From positions 1 through 32,089 of the forward strand of contig SVJT01000005.1 in NCBI GenBank assembly GCA_015068865.1: a stretch of 32,089 bases of DNA. The letters are read 5' to 3'. This document shows, in pieces, positions 19,705 through 26,782 of this stretch. Below the pieces are notes generated by a model. That model saw nothing but the letters and a program-made list of their open reading frames with translations. It ran no database searches and was not told where the DNA came from. The translations under genes and the position numbers were made by a program. The first letter of the stretch is position 1. Every line of letters begins with the position of its first letter. Source of the DNA: Oscillospiraceae bacterium. GTDB taxonomy: Bacteria > Bacillota > Clostridia > UBA1381 > UBA9506.

Positions 19705-19733
19705 TTGCAAATAATGGATAAACGTGATACAAT
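19705..19733 (+). promoter_or_regulatory. Sigma-A-like promoter for structured leader RNA
   Basis: TTGCAA - 17 nt - TACAAT; predicted start site ~19740 coincides with P1 5' strand. Confidence 0.55.
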
Positions 19734-19739
19734 ATAAGA

Positions 19740-19904
19740 GCCAAACAAACTAAATATATATTATTTAGGGATAAAAGTTATTTTTTACAAGGGGTTGCTA
19801 TACCCTTTTATTCTAATACCTCACGTTTTAGAATTGGCAAAAATGCAAATTCCACTTACGTGAGTGTTAAAGGTTTTATCCCATTTATGTAAAGTTTGTT
19901 TGGC
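19740..19904 (+). ncRNA. Candidate structured RNA (multi-branched, closed by 12-bp P1) upstream of LRR gene; class not recognised
   Basis: Nested stems: GCCAAACAAACT 19740-19751 / AGTTTGTTTGGC 19893-19904; GGGATAAAA 19768-19776 / TTTTATCCC 19874-19882; AAGGG 19789-19793 / CCCTT 19803-19807; CTCACGT 19820-19826 / ACGTGAG 19858-19864 with inner GAATT/AATTC. Confidence 0.65.
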
Positions 19905-19927
19905 GACAATCGGAGTTTGCGTTTTTC

Positions 19928-19960
19928 AGGTGCGTTGACTTCGGTTGATGCACCTTTTTT
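19928..19960 (+). terminator. Intrinsic terminator with cUUCGg tetraloop between structured RNA and LRR gene
   Basis: AGGTGCGTTGAC TTCG GTTGATGCACCT TTTTT. Confidence 0.85.
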
Positions 19961-19991
19961 GGTACAATATTTTGGTTTTGGAGATGATTTA

Positions 19992-22529
19992 ATGTTTAAA
20001 AAAGTAAGGTTCTTATGTATCATTAGCTTGATGATAACTTTGATAGTTATGCCTCAAAACATATCGTATGCGGCGACATCGGGGGAATGTGGCAATAATT
20101 TACGATGGTCAGTTTATAGTAGTGCTGATGGCGGTCATTTGGTGATTACTGGCAGTGGCGCTATGAAGGACTATACATATACAAATACACCTTTCAGTTC
20201 ATTAAACATCACAAAGATTACTATATATAACGGAGCAACATCGATAGGAAAAGGAGCATTTCAAGATTGTGTAAATCTAAAGTCTATAATAATACCTGAT
20301 TCTATTACTTCTATAGGGGAACGTGCTTTTTTTAATTGTACTAGCCTAACAGCGTTGACTATACCTGACGGGGTTATTAGTATTGGCAAATTTGCTTTTT
20401 ATGGTTGTGAAAAATTAGAATCAATGGAACTCGGAGTTAATGTTTCTAATATAGAACCACTTACATTTTATGGTTTAGCGACTATAAATGACATAAGCGT
20501 TAACGATAAAAACTCAAGTTTTTGTGATGTCGATGGTACATTATTTACAAAAGATATGACTAAACTCATTAAATATGGGGGCGGATTATTTGAAAAGGAA
20601 TATACGGTTCCTGATGGAGTAATTACTATAAATAGTGGTGCTTTTTCTTGCGCATTGAACACAAATTCTTGGACAAGTAACTGGTTAGACGAAATCGTTT
20701 TACCCGATTCATTAGTTACAATAGGAGACCGCGCTTTCGAACATTGCAGCAGTTTAGATACATTGCTAATACCTAGTGGTGTGACAAGTATTGGAGCCTA
20801 TGCATTTAGTGGATGCTCTCAATTAAAAAGTATATCAATACCAGTTGTAGTAAAAAATATAAACGATGGTATATTTCAAGGTTGTGCTAGTTTAACAAGT
20901 GTAGTAATCCCTAGCGGCGTAACAAACATAGGAAATTCTGCGTTTAGTGCGTGTCTTGATTTAATAGATGTATCAATCCCCAATAGCGTAACAAGTATCG
21001 GTAATGGGGCTTTTGCAAATTGTAATAATCTTGAAATTGTAAGATACAATGGTACGGAAGATGATTTCGCAAACATTACAATAGATGCATATAATAATCC
21101 ACTAAAAAATGCTGAAAAGTTTTATTTCTTGCATGTAGAAATACTTGATATGTCCGGCAACATAATATGCAAAAGAATACAGGATGCGAATCAAATAATT
21201 AACATTTCAGATGTTATAGATGAAAATTCGGCATATTACTTATATTATGATAATCAAAAAGTCAATAGATATGATATTAATTCCAAAAAAACGTCTACAA
21301 TGGTGTTGTATGCAGAGATATTTAAACCAAAATTAGAAACCATATCTATCTCGGGCAGAGATTCGTCAGAATTAGGCGAAATTATCACAGAAACCGTATT
21401 CTTTGCAACTAACAAAGATGTAAATTATATACTCTGTAACATCAAATATCCTGATAGTTTGGAATTAAAAGAAATAATACCTGTTGATTTTATGTATGCA
21501 GAAGAAGAAAGTCGGAAAACAGAAAATGGATTTACCACTTTATCTGTTTATTGCCAATATGCAAATAGCGGTAACGTTGATAAGAATAAAACCATTATTC
21601 CTTTTGAACTGAAATTCGAAATTGACAAATATTCAAATGTTGGAGATGCTTCAATAGAAATTCTAAATACCACTGAATATGGAGCTTCGTCTACAGCAGG
21701 ATTTGACAGTATTGAAAACACAAACATTAAAATTCTACCAAAACTTGCAGAAAGTATTACAATATCAGGTAAGACTGATATTTCTGATGCCACAACATAT
21801 ACAGCAACAATTATTCCTGATTATACAACAAACAAAAATATTGAGTGGTCGGTAAGCGACGCTACCATTGCTACTATTACACAAGAGGGAGGATTAAAGC
21901 CTGTTATGAATGGTCAAGTTGTCATCTATGCTAAGACACTTGATGGTAGTAATCTTGTTGCAGAAAAACTTGTTAATATCTCAGCTAAAGCCAAACTCAA
22001 TACTTTGTCAACAAGTATCGGTGATTGGGAATGTGCATTTTATGAAGATCAAAGGGAATATACAATATATGTTCCGGAAGATGCTACACAAATTGGGGTT
22101 ACTGCTACCTATGATGGTGAAGGCGTAATGAGGATAGGTGGAAGCTTAACAAGGAGCGGTGTTACAAGAAATATTGAATTAACAAATGATATTACTCCAA
22201 TCTTAATAGAAAGAACTGGTGTTGGAGATAATTATATTGATTCAGAATATACGATTACTGTTATAAAAACCAAACCATTTACAAAGGTGACGGTATCAGA
22301 GGATGGTAAGTTATTTAATGTTCGTGCATATCTTGTGGACAATTACAGTAAAATAATACTAGCATTATATAAAGATAAAAGATTTATAACTTTATATGAT
22401 GACCTTGCAAATCAAGGTGTAACTATACCATTTACTGTTACGGAAGATTATGATACGGCAAAAGTTATGGTTTGGGAGAATTGGGACACTTTAAGACCTT
22501 TATGTGAAGTGGAAGAAATAAATAGATAA
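19992..22529 (+). CDS. BspA-like leucine-rich repeat secreted/surface protein with C-terminal Ig-like/cadherin-like domains
   Basis: Signal peptide MFKKVRFLCIISLMITLIVMPQNISYA; tandem LRR_5 repeats (TSIGERAFFNCTSLTALTIPDGVISIGKFAFYGCEKLESM ...); ggaga RBS before ATG 19992. Confidence 0.9.
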   Translation: MFKKVRFLCIISLMITLIVMPQNISYAATSGECGNNLRWSVYSSADGGHLVITGSGAMKDYTYTNTPFSSLNITKITIYNGATSIGKGAFQDCVNLKSIIIPDSITSIGERAFFNCTSLTALTIPDGVISIGKFAFYGCEKLESMELGVNVSNIEPLTFYGLATINDISVNDKNSSFCDVDGTLFTKDMTKLIKYGGGLFEKEYTVPDGVITINSGAFSCALNTNSWTSNWLDEIVLPDSLVTIGDRAFEHCSSLDTLLIPSGVTSIGAYAFSGCSQLKSISIPVVVKNINDGIFQGCASLTSVVIPSGVTNIGNSAFSACLDLIDVSIPNSVTSIGNGAFANCNNLEIVRYNGTEDDFANITIDAYNNPLKNAEKFYFLHVEILDMSGNIICKRIQDANQIINISDVIDENSAYYLYYDNQKVNRYDINSKKTSTMVLYAEIFKPKLETISISGRDSSELGEIITETVFFATNKDVNYILCNIKYPDSLELKEIIPVDFMYAEEESRKTENGFTTLSVYCQYANSGNVDKNKTIIPFELKFEIDKYSNVGDASIEILNTTEYGASSTAGFDSIENTNIKILPKLAESITISGKTDISDATTYTATIIPDYTTNKNIEWSVSDATIATITQEGGLKPVMNGQVVIYAKTLDGSNLVAEKLVNISAKAKLNTLSTSIGDWECAFYEDQREYTIYVPEDATQIGVTATYDGEGVMRIGGSLTRSGVTRNIELTNDITPILIERTGVGDNYIDSEYTITVIKTKPFTKVTVSEDGKLFNVRAYLVDNYSKIILALYKDKRFITLYDDLANQGVTIPFTVTEDYDTAKVMVWENWDTLRPLCEVEEINR

Positions 22530-22699: not shown

Positions 22700-22730
22700 A
22701 TAGTTAATCAAAGAAAAGGGGTTGACTATT

Positions 22731-23294
22731 ATGTTAGTTGGATATGCAAGAGTTTCAACAGACGGACAAAATTTAGACAGGCAGATAGATGCCTTAAAAG
22801 AAGTGGGCGTAGATAACAGGGTTTTGTATCAGGAAAAAATCACAGGCACGAAAAAAGACCGCCCCGAACTACAAAGAATGTTGGAAGAACTAAACGAAGG
22901 TGATACAGTAATCATTACTGACCTTACAAGAATTTCACGTAGTACAAAGGATTTGTTGGATATAATCGAAAAAATTAAAAATAAGGGTGCTACTATACGA
23001 AGTCTGAAAGATACATGGTTAGATACCACAAGCAACAATCCGTATAATGCTTTCCTTTTAACTGTTATGAGCGGTTTAAGTCAGTTGGAACGTGATTTGA
23101 TAAGCCAACGAACAAAAGAAGGTTTGGTAAGTGCAAAAGCACGTGGACGAAATGGCGGTAGACCGTCAAAACAAAACGAAAAAGGCGAAGTTGTAAAGGC
23201 ATTAGCCAATAGCGGTATGAAAATTGTGGATATTGTAAAAGAAACAGGTTTGTCTCGAAGTACAATAAACAGAATTTTAAGAGATAATAAATAA
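22731..23294 (+). CDS. Small serine recombinase (resolvase/invertase family)
   Basis: GYARVSTDGQNLDRQIDALKEVGVD, ITDLTRISRSTKDLL, SQLERDLISQRTKEGL, C-terminal HTH_7. Confidence 0.95.
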   Translation: MLVGYARVSTDGQNLDRQIDALKEVGVDNRVLYQEKITGTKKDRPELQRMLEELNEGDTVIITDLTRISRSTKDLLDIIEKIKNKGATIRSLKDTWLDTTSNNPYNAFLLTVMSGLSQLERDLISQRTKEGLVSAKARGRNGGRPSKQNEKGEVVKALANSGMKIVDIVKETGLSRSTINRILRDNK

Positions 23295-23315
23295 CAGTTA
23301 AATATCAAAAAATTT

Positions 23316-23344
23316 GCAAGGTTGAAATATACCTTGCTTTTTTT
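23316..23344 (+). terminator. Terminator of serine recombinase gene
   Basis: GCAAGGT tgaaatat ACCTTGC TTTTTTT. Confidence 0.75.
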
Positions 23345-23490
23345 ATGCAAAAATTCAAAAAATCACGTCAAAAGTGTGTTATGTTCAAAAACGCAAATTT
23401 TCATCAAAAAGTTTCAGAAAAAAAGAGAATAATCTTGTGTAGGGTGATTTATGTGCAACCAATGCCTAAAAATTACGGGAGGAATATTTA

Positions 23491-24408
23491 ATGAACAAAG
23501 AAAAAAGAATGGCATATTGCACGAACAATACACAAGTAGGTTTCCATACAGGGAACGGAACAACGGATAATATGATTGATTTTGAAGTTGCTGACAATAT
23601 CAACATCATAAATTCATGCAATGTGCGAAAAGTAAGAAATCGTGATTGGTACAAAACATATATACGTGTAAATCCAAATAAGAACAACGGCGGTTACATT
23701 TTAGAAAAGTATTCAGATTTCAAAAAGGTAATGAAAACTGTCTTTGATGAAATTGGCGTAGACGATTTTGAATGGAAACGTATTGATTTAAGCTTTAATA
23801 CGTTAGATAACGAGTATTACGAGAATTACACAAAACTGAATAGATTGTTGATTGCGTGTTTTGCAAGTGCGACAAACGACTACAATACATACGATACGAG
23901 GAACTTTTGGACCGGATGTACAAAAAGTCTTGCCACTAAAAACAATTATCGTGAAGTCGAATTCTATGATAAACAGGACGAAAGTCAAAATCGAAGTCCG
24001 TATTATAGCAGACTTGAATTTAGAAGTTTGCGTATGCGAGCTGATGTTGAAACTGAATTTTTGACAATATGGTTTGACAGGTTGGATAAAGCGGTAAAAG
24101 AATTTGAAAACGTGCAGCACAAATTTAATCAAAACATGGCAGAAATTTATTTGAATGACCTGAAAAAGAAAAAAAGAGAACGTCAATTTTTGGGCATCAA
24201 TAGTTTTCTGATGACAAGAAAAGATTATATCTTTACGAGCAGGCAGATGAAAAATCTACTGATGCTGATTGGCTTAAATGAGAAACAGGCGCAAAACAAA
24301 GCCTATAACTTCAAAAAGTATCATAAAATCGAATACTTTAAAAAAGAAGATTTGGTGGCGATTGTTGCCGACATCAAAACAAAAATTACTGACTATTTTT
24401 CTAAATAA
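23491..24408 (+). CDS. Putative replication initiation (Rep)-like protein
   Basis: Charged ~300-aa protein with RIDLSFNTLD, VEFYDK and SRLEFRSLRM segments resembling Rep proteins of small plasmids/IMEs; family not certain. Confidence 0.45.
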   Translation: MNKEKRMAYCTNNTQVGFHTGNGTTDNMIDFEVADNINIINSCNVRKVRNRDWYKTYIRVNPNKNNGGYILEKYSDFKKVMKTVFDEIGVDDFEWKRIDLSFNTLDNEYYENYTKLNRLLIACFASATNDYNTYDTRNFWTGCTKSLATKNNYREVEFYDKQDESQNRSPYYSRLEFRSLRMRADVETEFLTIWFDRLDKAVKEFENVQHKFNQNMAEIYLNDLKKKKRERQFLGINSFLMTRKDYIFTSRQMKNLLMLIGLNEKQAQNKAYNFKKYHKIEYFKKEDLVAIVADIKTKITDYFSK

Positions 24409-24497
24409 TCAGTAATAAATTACCAAAATACAAAATTATAAAATGTCGAATAGGCATTGAAATACAAGGCTTTATAGACGATTTTCTTTAAAGCTAA

Positions 24498-24532
24498 TTA
24501 CCTAATATATATGTAAGCATACATACAGGTAA
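24498..24532 (+). other. Hairpin in the intergenic region downstream of Rep-like gene
   Basis: TTACCT...TATGTA agca TACATA c AGGTAA two-stage stem. Confidence 0.45.
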
Positions 24533-24647
24533 CAGTTGTACATAAATACTCTACAAAAATTTATGTATAAAGGAGAAAAGTGCATTGGCACTAATATCTA
24601 CCAATAAAATAATCTTTTCATTAGTGCTGATAGCACGAGTGAAAAAT

Positions 24648-25220
24648 ATGGCAAATTATAAAATTTTATCAAATACTGAAAAACATACGAGATATAACAA
24701 TATGAAAAATAGATGTGGAAAATACTATCAGTTGCAAAATCCACGTTATGAAGGTACATATATGTGTGATGAATGGTTAGATAACAAATATGAAACTTTT
24801 TTCACTTGGTTAGATAATAACTATTATGAAGTTGACGGCGAAAAACAGATGGATATAGATAAAGACATCATCAAATACGGAAACAAACTGTATCATCCTG
24901 ACTTGTGTTTGGTAGTGCCACATAGTATAAATACATTCTATGAAACAATAGAGGTTGGCAAAACCAACATCACATATAATTCAAAAACAAAGAAATATCG
25001 TGTTAAAGTGGCAGATAAAAACGAATATCACGAATTGAGCAATATAGATACATATAATGAAGCGTTAGATATATATTGCGATATAAAGCAAGGGATATTG
25101 TTTAACAAAGCAAAAGCACTTAAAGATAAAGTGCCTGAAAAGGTTTATAATGCTTTGATGAATACCGACATAAAGGCTATCAACCAAAAGTATTGTGAAT
25201 CTGTTGAAGGTGAGGTGTGA
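24648..25220 (+). CDS. Unknown protein, resembles phage/IME HNH-AP2-type small proteins
   Basis: RYNNMKNRCG...MCDEWLDNKYETFFTWLDNNYY...MDIDKDIIKYGNKLYHPDLCLVVPHSIN pattern; ATG at 24648 (MANYK). Confidence 0.5.
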   Translation: MANYKILSNTEKHTRYNNMKNRCGKYYQLQNPRYEGTYMCDEWLDNKYETFFTWLDNNYYEVDGEKQMDIDKDIIKYGNKLYHPDLCLVVPHSINTFYETIEVGKTNITYNSKTKKYRVKVADKNEYHELSNIDTYNEALDIYCDIKQGILFNKAKALKDKVPEKVYNALMNTDIKAINQKYCESVEGEV

Positions 25221-25224
25221 GCCG

Positions 25225-25428
25225 TTGAAAAAGATAGAAATACCTATTTGGGAAAAATATGCTTTAACGATAGACGAAGCGGCTTTATACTTCAGAATTG
25301 GTGAAAATGCTATAAGACGTATTATAAACGAAAATCAGGATGCAAATTTTTGGTTCATGATAGGTAACAGGAAGTTAATAAAGCGAGTGCTTTTTGAAGA
25401 ATATATGAACGGCGTGACCGTAATTTAA
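25225..25428 (+). CDS. Excisionase-like (Tn916 Xis-type) DNA-binding protein
   Basis: IPIWEKYALTIDEAALYFRIGENAIRRIINENQDANFWFMIGNRKLIKRVLFEEYM immediately upstream of integrase; TTG start with aaggtgagg RBS. Confidence 0.85.
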   Translation: MKKIEIPIWEKYALTIDEAALYFRIGENAIRRIINENQDANFWFMIGNRKLIKRVLFEEYMNGVTVI

Positions 25429-25483
25429 CTTTAATGTATGGACGAATTGAGCCTGATATGGTATAATAGTTTCATACTATATC

Positions 25484-26782
25484 ATGGCTCTTTTCGGAAA
25501 GGAGATTTATTTAGTGTCTGAAAAGAGAAGAGATAACAAGAAACGAATTTTAAATAATGGAGAGAGCCAACGTAAAGATGGTAAGTATGAGTTTAAATAT
25601 GTAGATGCTAACGGCGTGCGTAGAAGTGCGTACAGTTGGAAATTGGTTGATACCGATAAAGTGCCTGAAGGAAAAAGGTGTGATATGAGTTTGCGAGAAA
25701 TCGAAAAACAAATACGCCGGGATTTGGAAGATGGTATCAGTACCCACAATGCCAACAGTAAAACATTGAATGATATATATAATACATATATGGAAAGTAA
25801 AACGGAGTTGAAGCCGTCAACAAGAACTAATTACAAGTATATGTATAAAAAATATGTAAGCATCTCAATCGGTAAAAGACGAATTTCTACTATTAAATAT
25901 AGCGATATAAAAAAGTTTTATAATAGCTTAATATTAGAAAAGGGATTTAAACCAAACAGTATGGAATCTATACATACAATTTTACATCCCATATTTACAA
26001 TGGCGGTTAGAGATGGTTATATACGCACAAACCCAACAGATGATGTGATGCGTGAAATTAAGAAAAGTCATAATTGGGAAACACCGAAACGTCACGCACT
26101 TACTGAAGAACAACAGGAAATATTTATTGACTTTGTTGCTAATTCAAAAGAATATCAGCATTGGCTACCCTTATTTACTGTTTTTCTCGGTACAGGGTGC
26201 AGAGTTGGTGAGATTATTGGTTTAACGTGGGAAGATTGCAACTTCAAAGAAGGTATTATATCAATCAACCATAATCTGATTTATAGGCAACAGGACAACG
26301 GAAAATGCGAAATGCACATTACTACGCCGAAAACAGAATCAGGCAAAAGAATTGTGCCAATGTTTGAGGCGGTACGCAAAGCGTTATTACAAGAGAAAAT
26401 GCGACAGATGCAAATAGGGTTTAACACAACCATAATAGACGGATATTCAGGGTTTGTGTTCAAAAACAGGTTTGGATATGTACACAATCCACATGCAATA
26501 AACAGAGCCATAAAACGCATTTACACCGCCTGTAACAAACAGGAAATGGAACGTGCAGCAAAGGAACGCCGAGAGCCGATATTGATACCACACTTTAGTT
26601 GTCATTCATTAAGACATACCTTTTGTACGAGATTTTGCGAGAATGAAACAGACCTGAAAATCATTCAGGAAATCATGGGACATGCCGATATTAGCACAAC
26701 AATGAACGTTTATAATGAAGCAACAAAGGAGCGGAAACAGGCATCTTTTGCAAGATTGGAAGGTAAAATCAAAATATGCTAA
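25484..26782 (+). CDS. Tyrosine site-specific integrase (Tn916-type; possible GTG start at 25514)
   Basis: Catalytic motifs GTGCRVGEIIGLTWEDC, HSLRHTFCTRF, MGHADISTTMNVY. Confidence 0.96.
   Translation: MALFGKEIYLVSEKRRDNKKRILNNGESQRKDGKYEFKYVDANGVRRSAYSWKLVDTDKVPEGKRCDMSLREIEKQIRRDLEDGISTHNANSKTLNDIYNTYMESKTELKPSTRTNYKYMYKKYVSISIGKRRISTIKYSDIKKFYNSLILEKGFKPNSMESIHTILHPIFTMAVRDGYIRTNPTDDVMREIKKSHNWETPKRHALTEEQQEIFIDFVANSKEYQHWLPLFTVFLGTGCRVGEIIGLTWEDCNFKEGIISINHNLIYRQQDNGKCEMHITTPKTESGKRIVPMFEAVRKALLQEKMRQMQIGFNTTIIDGYSGFVFKNRFGYVHNPHAINRAIKRIYTACNKQEMERAAKERREPILIPHFSCHSLRHTFCTRFCENETDLKIIQEIMGHADISTTMNVYNEATKERKQASFARLEGKIKIC

Follow-up and report, generated by a model that had tools for sequence, protein, structure and literature searches.

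The locus analysed here raises the question of what kind of RNA is encoded between a promoter and the start codon of a surface protein gene in an Oscillospiraceae bacterium. The window, by which we mean the whole 32,089-nucleotide stretch of DNA under analysis, had been given a preliminary description in which this leader figured as a candidate novel structured RNA, either a riboswitch-like cis-regulatory leader or an independent small RNA of a mobile element. Our results suggest that the element is probably a member of a new family of cis-acting, riboswitch-like transcription attenuators. The promoter, closing stem, nested stems, UUCG terminator and ribosome binding site with its ATG that had been described were all located in the sequence (Table 1), and the compact multibranch fold is real, as the leader has a minimum free energy (MFE) of -76.7 kcal/mol, whereas 200 dinucleotide shuffles give -51.3 +/- 4.5 and not one of them folds as well (z = -5.6). 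To these parts our analysis adds a 15-bp pseudoknot, an antiterminator, a mini-hairpin and three further copies in the same genome. The LRR_5 protein encoded downstream has, in its N-terminal sequence, a signal-peptide-like start. The stretch on the 3' side of its gene (window 22722-26782) encodes a serine resolvase, a Tn916-type tyrosine integrase and, between them, two open reading frames that match no Pfam family; it is possibly an integrated mobile element.

Table 1. Features of the leader and of the gene behind it, in window coordinates, with the basis of each assignment.
Feature	Coordinates	Strand	Details	Basis
Sigma-A-like promoter	19705..19733	+	TTGCAA 19705-19710, spacer 17 nt, TACAAT 19728-19733	sequence
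P1 5' strand (closing stem)	19740..19751	+	GCCAAACAAACT	fold
P1 3' strand	19893..19904	+	AGTTTGTTTGGC; 12 bp with 19740-19751	sequence, fold
Inner domain P2-P5	19768..19882	+		MFE fold of window
P2	19768-19776/19874-19882	+	GGGATAAAA/TTTTATCCC	MFE fold
P3 hairpin	19789-19795/19802-19808	+	AGGG/CCCT	MFE fold
P4 arm	19814-19826/19858-19869	+	contains CTCACGT/ACGTGAG	MFE fold
P5 inner hairpin	19831-19835/19848-19852	+		MFE fold
Pseudoknot 5' strand	19839..19853	+	AAAAATGCAAATTCC; inside P1 domain, overlaps P5	complementary to 19912-19926; homologue covariation
Linker	19905..19911	+	GACAATC, from P1 to pseudoknot 3' strand	conserved form GACWATC; covaries with P1
Mini-hairpin	19896-19900 with 19905-19909	+	P1 3' strand with linker	predicted fold; covariation
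Pseudoknot 3' strand (switching strand)	19912..19926	+	GGAGTTTGCGTTTTT; 15-bp pairing with 19839-19853	covariation
Antiterminator hairpin	19911..19943	+	19911-19917 and 19919-19922 with 19932-19935 and 19937-19943	fold; covariation
Intrinsic terminator	19928..19960	+	19928-19939/19944-19955; UUCG loop; U tract to 19960; -15.3 kcal/mol	sequence
Shine-Dalgarno	19980..19983	+	GGAG	sequence
BspA-type LRR_5 surface protein gene	19992..22529	+	ATG 19992; regulated gene in the proposal	Pfam LRR_5, E = 8.4e-64

The RNA does not correspond to a known family. Scans of the window and 20 homologous loci against Rfam 15 gave no family at the gathering cut-off for the element, relaxed Rfam scans of it returned only weak, unrelated matches at chance level, and the T-box, c-di-GMP-I and c-di-GMP-II models did not match it in these scans. 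Homologues are found in the hundreds. A DNA search detected three further diverged copies in the window genome, whose downstream genes encode a small lipoprotein, a secreted protein and a small membrane protein, and DNA matches in 13 of 20 genomes of the taxonomic family. An exact pattern derived from the conserved 3' part occurs in at least 120 stretches of the GTDB contig collection; among the matches listed (80 records), all are labelled Clostridia, a group within it, or Bacillota, nearly all are MAGs, and many come from the gut of ruminants and rabbits. Two shapes of the element, long and compact, were each used to build a covariance model. The model of the long type, R1, matches 17 of 20 genomes of the family, 56 of 95 of the order and 71 of 391 of the class, and the model trained on compact copies only, R2, matches 92 of the 391 class genomes; because R2 also recovers the long-type window copy (E = 1.8e-7), the two types are linked. 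In a phylum-wide genome sample neither model matches any genome but that of the window. Copy numbers range from 10 to 26 in the six genomes that were scored in full. The element thus represents a large RNA family of the class Clostridia that is absent from Rfam, and the suggestion of a novel structured RNA is supported.

The same searches speak against the suggestion that the element is a small RNA of a mobile element, since the RNA family is found on chromosomes and throughout the class. Only 4 IMG/VR contigs contain the search pattern, and BLAST with the window copy retrieved one phage record and no plasmid record, for which reasons a phage or plasmid element was rejected. Some copies stand in tandem, as two or three complete units about 200-350 nt apart (contigs C9, C16, C28 and C59 of genome G007, C50 of G089, C22 of G015 and C14 of G269), each with its own promoter and terminator where these were read; a promoter for every unit is unusual for tandem riboswitches. 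At another site (L018 / L025, contig C19 of G007) short palindromic repeats such as GCTTCATAAATCCGCTTTGCGGATTTGCTTCAT are clustered upstream of the first unit, where they stand in for the start of a unit that seemingly has neither promoter nor P1 5' strand.

Both shapes follow a common plan. From the 5' end this comprises P1, a largely conserved AATA, inner arms that vary and an A-rich AAAAAYGC..., and then the P1 3' strand, the linker (commonly GACWATC), a CGGAG-containing strand that ends in GYGTTTTT or similar, and the terminator. The long type, to which the window copy belongs, has P2, the P3 hairpin, P4 and P5, with similar arms in other long-type copies; the compact type has one long arm and measures about 130 nt to the end of the pseudoknot. 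In the window, the P3 hairpin together with the T-rich stretch that follows it (19789-19815) resembles a weak early terminator or pause site, and this combination (GGG..TATACCCTTTT) is frequent among long-type copies. A TATAAT-like hexamer with at least 5/6 matches precedes 89 of 110 long-type and 77 of 80 compact copies (40 and 16, respectively, in shuffled upstream sequences). In homologues of both types the commonest distance from the end of this -10 box to P1 is 6 nt, which places the expected start of the RNA at P1.

Conservation of these helices is seen in their compensating changes. An RNAalifold prediction on a MAFFT alignment recovered P1 alone because the inner arms differ in length. 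For this reason the helices were assessed on anchored segments, by permutation and against a named structure. Among compact homologues, both sides have changed in 7 of the 11 P1 pairs while 99.6% of cells remain paired, and P2 of the compact type covaries as well, as expected if the stems of the preliminary description form a conserved structure. Over P1, P2 and the pseudoknot of 46 compact sequences, 94.2% of cells are paired and 21 of 34 pairs have changed on both sides; their covariation score is 0.397, compared with 0.193 +/- 0.008 after shuffling and at most 0.121 when the partners are slid. In a permutation test on 55 non-redundant copies, which compared each copy's own strands with those of other copies and excluded the A/U core, the linker strand pairs with its own pseudoknot strand (z = -8.2) and with its own terminator 5' arm and loop (z = -10.2) better than in any of 5000 permutations, values in which shared ancestry is partly retained; two control pairings in the same copies were at chance (z = -1.0 and +1.1). 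Examples of the antiterminator pairing are ACAAAGCG with CGCTTTGT (locus L291) and ATGAGC with GCTCAT (locus L249). The signal is present in gene-linked and in gene-less copies when each group is tested separately, and it is weaker in the long type, where 38 copies not picked by a fixed pattern gave z = -3.3 for linker and terminator and z = -5.2 for linker and pseudoknot, with a control at -2.1. We also considered that the pseudoknot 5' strand might pair with the terminator, and rejected this because the pairing is no better than chance.

The switching region between P1 and the terminator has three alternative partners: the segment of the P1 domain, the terminator 5' arm and the P1 3' strand. 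The argument for the third, a mini-hairpin, rests on how the linker follows P1. In the pattern-derived set, whose search pattern itself admitted A or T only at linker base 4, this base tracks P1 pair 8 in 100 of 104 copies, with a mutual information of 0.80 bit where nothing else in P1 exceeds 0.144, and it makes standard pairs with the P1 3' strand in 106 of 110, where shuffles give 55. Among compact copies, linker position 3 and P1 position 7 are Watson-Crick partners in 77 of 79 copies. Where P1 contains a U-G wobble, the linker tracks the 3' strand, and a short hairpin between this strand and the linker is therefore the simplest interpretation; the coupling could alternatively reflect a base triple. 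By short-alignment count, the mini-hairpin taken alone pairs nearly as well when slid by 3 columns in the U run.

These elements together have the organization of a riboswitch that acts by transcription attenuation: a conserved, covarying structured domain lies before genes, promoter and start codon are separated by a terminator to which an antiterminator is the alternative, and pseudoknot and antiterminator use one and the same strand and both covary, which suggests that they would exclude each other in time during transcription. In the mechanism that we propose, transcription would begin at P1 and the folded domain P1-P5 would act as the sensor. In the OFF state, P1 and the pseudoknot would occupy the switching strand, leaving the terminator to fold and transcription to stop before the gene; in the ON state, the mini-hairpin and the antiterminator, formed by the CGGAG strand with the terminator 5' arm, would allow read-through into the gene. 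This direction of control, with the pseudoknot as OFF and the antiterminator as ON, is the one that we infer. By pseudoknot-free folding, the energies of the two window hairpins are almost equal, with -14.4 kcal/mol for the segment from linker to loop (19905-19946), which folds as the antiterminator, and -15.3 kcal/mol for the terminator. P1 and the antiterminator are both present in the MFE structure of a window transcript ending at the terminator loop, a prediction that cannot hold pseudoknots. A metabolite, an ion, a protein or another RNA would presumably stabilize one of the two states. The description of the element as a riboswitch-like cis leader is thus borne out in its architecture, from promoter, folded domain and alternative pairings to terminator and gene, while recognition of a ligand is putative.

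The genes behind the element give an indication of what the signal could be. Most pattern-derived copies, mainly of the long type, are followed by an open reading frame with a Shine-Dalgarno sequence that begins 66-150 nt behind P1. The products are diverse, with LRR_5 proteins in 14 of 105, dockerins in 6 and zinc-ribbon proteins in 5, in addition to many lipoproteins, and they are biased to secreted proteins and lipoproteins: a simple hydrophobicity rule, used instead of a trained predictor, calls signal-peptide-like N-termini in 35 of 63 downstream and 68 of 450 neighbouring open reading frames (odds ratio 7.0, p = 1.6e-11). AbrB/MazE-like proteins are also found among the downstream products along with those of the zinc-ribbon type, and behind four copies (L024, L093, L121 and L137) stand small proteins that by eye are of SLOG type (e.g. 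CCFTGHRPEKIG). A leader peptide behind GGAG, which some copies would allow (GGAG...ATG CGT CTA CTT CGG TAG), was rejected by eye, as other copies have no stop or no start. Given a regulon this broad, with its bias to surface proteins, our preferred guess for the trigger is a general signal such as a second messenger. The fuller proposal is a tentative one, to which we give somewhat less than an even chance. It sees in the element a new riboswitch class whose putative ligand is probably a global signal or a second messenger. Pseudoknot, antiterminator and P1-linker mini-hairpin would form a three-way switch with direct control over as many as about 26 transcription units in a genome, most of them for surface and secreted proteins, in about one in four of the Clostridia genera sampled.

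An explanation that overlaps with the attenuator keeps the same switch and replaces the small molecule or ion with a protein or another RNA as trigger; the present data suit either kind of trigger. The size of the domain and its variable inner arms, the single-stranded AATA kept behind P1 and the great diversity of the regulon all favour such a partner, and we regard it as a serious contender, at roughly one chance in three. However, no candidate came up in what was not a systematic search, and the Rfam scans contained no known antiterminator-protein recognition hairpin.

Copies without a gene bear on a different reading, according to which each unit from promoter to terminator produces a standalone, trans-acting short RNA, about 220 nt long for the window copy, whose placement ahead of genes would be a secondary matter. 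Behind 34 of the 80 compact copies (about 40%) there is no recognised gene start on the same strand, and most of the 20 gene-less copies that were inspected point at the end of a convergent gene. In several of these 20, part of the unit, namely P1 3' strand, linker and CGGAG, recurs in inverted form behind the terminator; at loci L303-L322 (e.g. L304, L303 and L317) this partial copy resembles the complement, e.g. CTCCGGTTGTTGCTACACAAAC. A duplex z below -3 was obtained for 6 of the 80 copies, all of them gene-less. Since the gene-less copies keep the switch pairings, their product may be a regulated antisense RNA or an RNA that stands alone. That these copies have no recognised gene start and yet keep their pairings, that tandem units have their own promoters and that the long-type signal is weaker all count against the attenuator, and the presence in every unit of a promoter at P1 and a terminator, as well as the existence of complete units in tandem, would suit an independent RNA. 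However, an antiterminator that covaries with the terminator has no point without read-through, a Shine-Dalgarno sequence and start codon stand close behind nearly all pattern-derived copies, and the downstream genes are strongly biased to secreted products. As an account of the whole family a standalone RNA is therefore unlikely; it is a possible role for the subset of copies that have no gene downstream. Last, a mobile or recombination element whose palindromes are selected as DNA and not as RNA would fit the many and sometimes tandem copies per genome, the inverted partial repeats behind some gene-less ones and the resolvase and Tn916-type integrase near the window LRR gene, but it is very improbable given that the copies are not near-identical and have diverged with compensating changes in the RNA pairings, that they keep the positions of promoter and terminator, and that the pattern is rare in viral contigs and the window copy has no plasmid match.

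If the attenuator reading is true, Rfam lacks a regulatory RNA that is both abundant and widespread in uncultured gut Clostridia, and the element would point to a signal by which these bacteria set their surface-protein repertoire in gut and rumen. With the pairings decoded, reporter and probing tests are simple to design, and the two covariance models make it possible to list the regulon in any genome.

Comparison with known systems places the element close to several of them. The c-di-GMP riboswitches of Clostridia are multi-copy leaders that control surface proteins through terminators, and the element resembles them as a multi-copy leader of Clostridia with terminators before surface-protein genes; however, their Rfam families fail to match it and its architecture differs. 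The RNA of type III toxin-antitoxin systems (ToxI) is likewise organized as promoter, structured RNA, terminator and gene, but the genes downstream of our element are diverse and do not form one toxin family: ToxN, CptN and TenpN are absent both as the window gene, which is LRR_5, and from the best 25 of 71 families among the 105 downstream genes. A reverse transcriptase, the sign of a retron, neither adjoins the window copy nor appears among the best 25 of those 71 families. As a structured RNA of gut bacteria outside Rfam, the element is similar to the candidate structured RNAs reported in human microbiomes (PMC8040213). The relevant passages of that paper's main text contain no such motif and we found no description of this RNA in the literature searched, although the supplementary motif tables of PMC8040213 may list it without a name. 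Riboswitches that act by antisense have been described (PMC9943018), and the gene-less copies facing convergent genes could act in the same way, although the majority of copies in this family are leaders in sense orientation. Riboswitches that terminate transcription and contain a pseudoknot, such as the preQ1 riboswitches, have been reviewed (PMC11625349), as have expression platforms (PMC10907184). The element differs from such riboswitches in having no Rfam match, two shapes, a linker able to pair with P1 as well, as many as 26 copies in one genome, a surface-protein regulon and a ligand that is only putative. It shares with them a promoter-proximal domain closed by P1, a pseudoknot to a downstream strand and a choice between terminator and antiterminator, all placed before genes.
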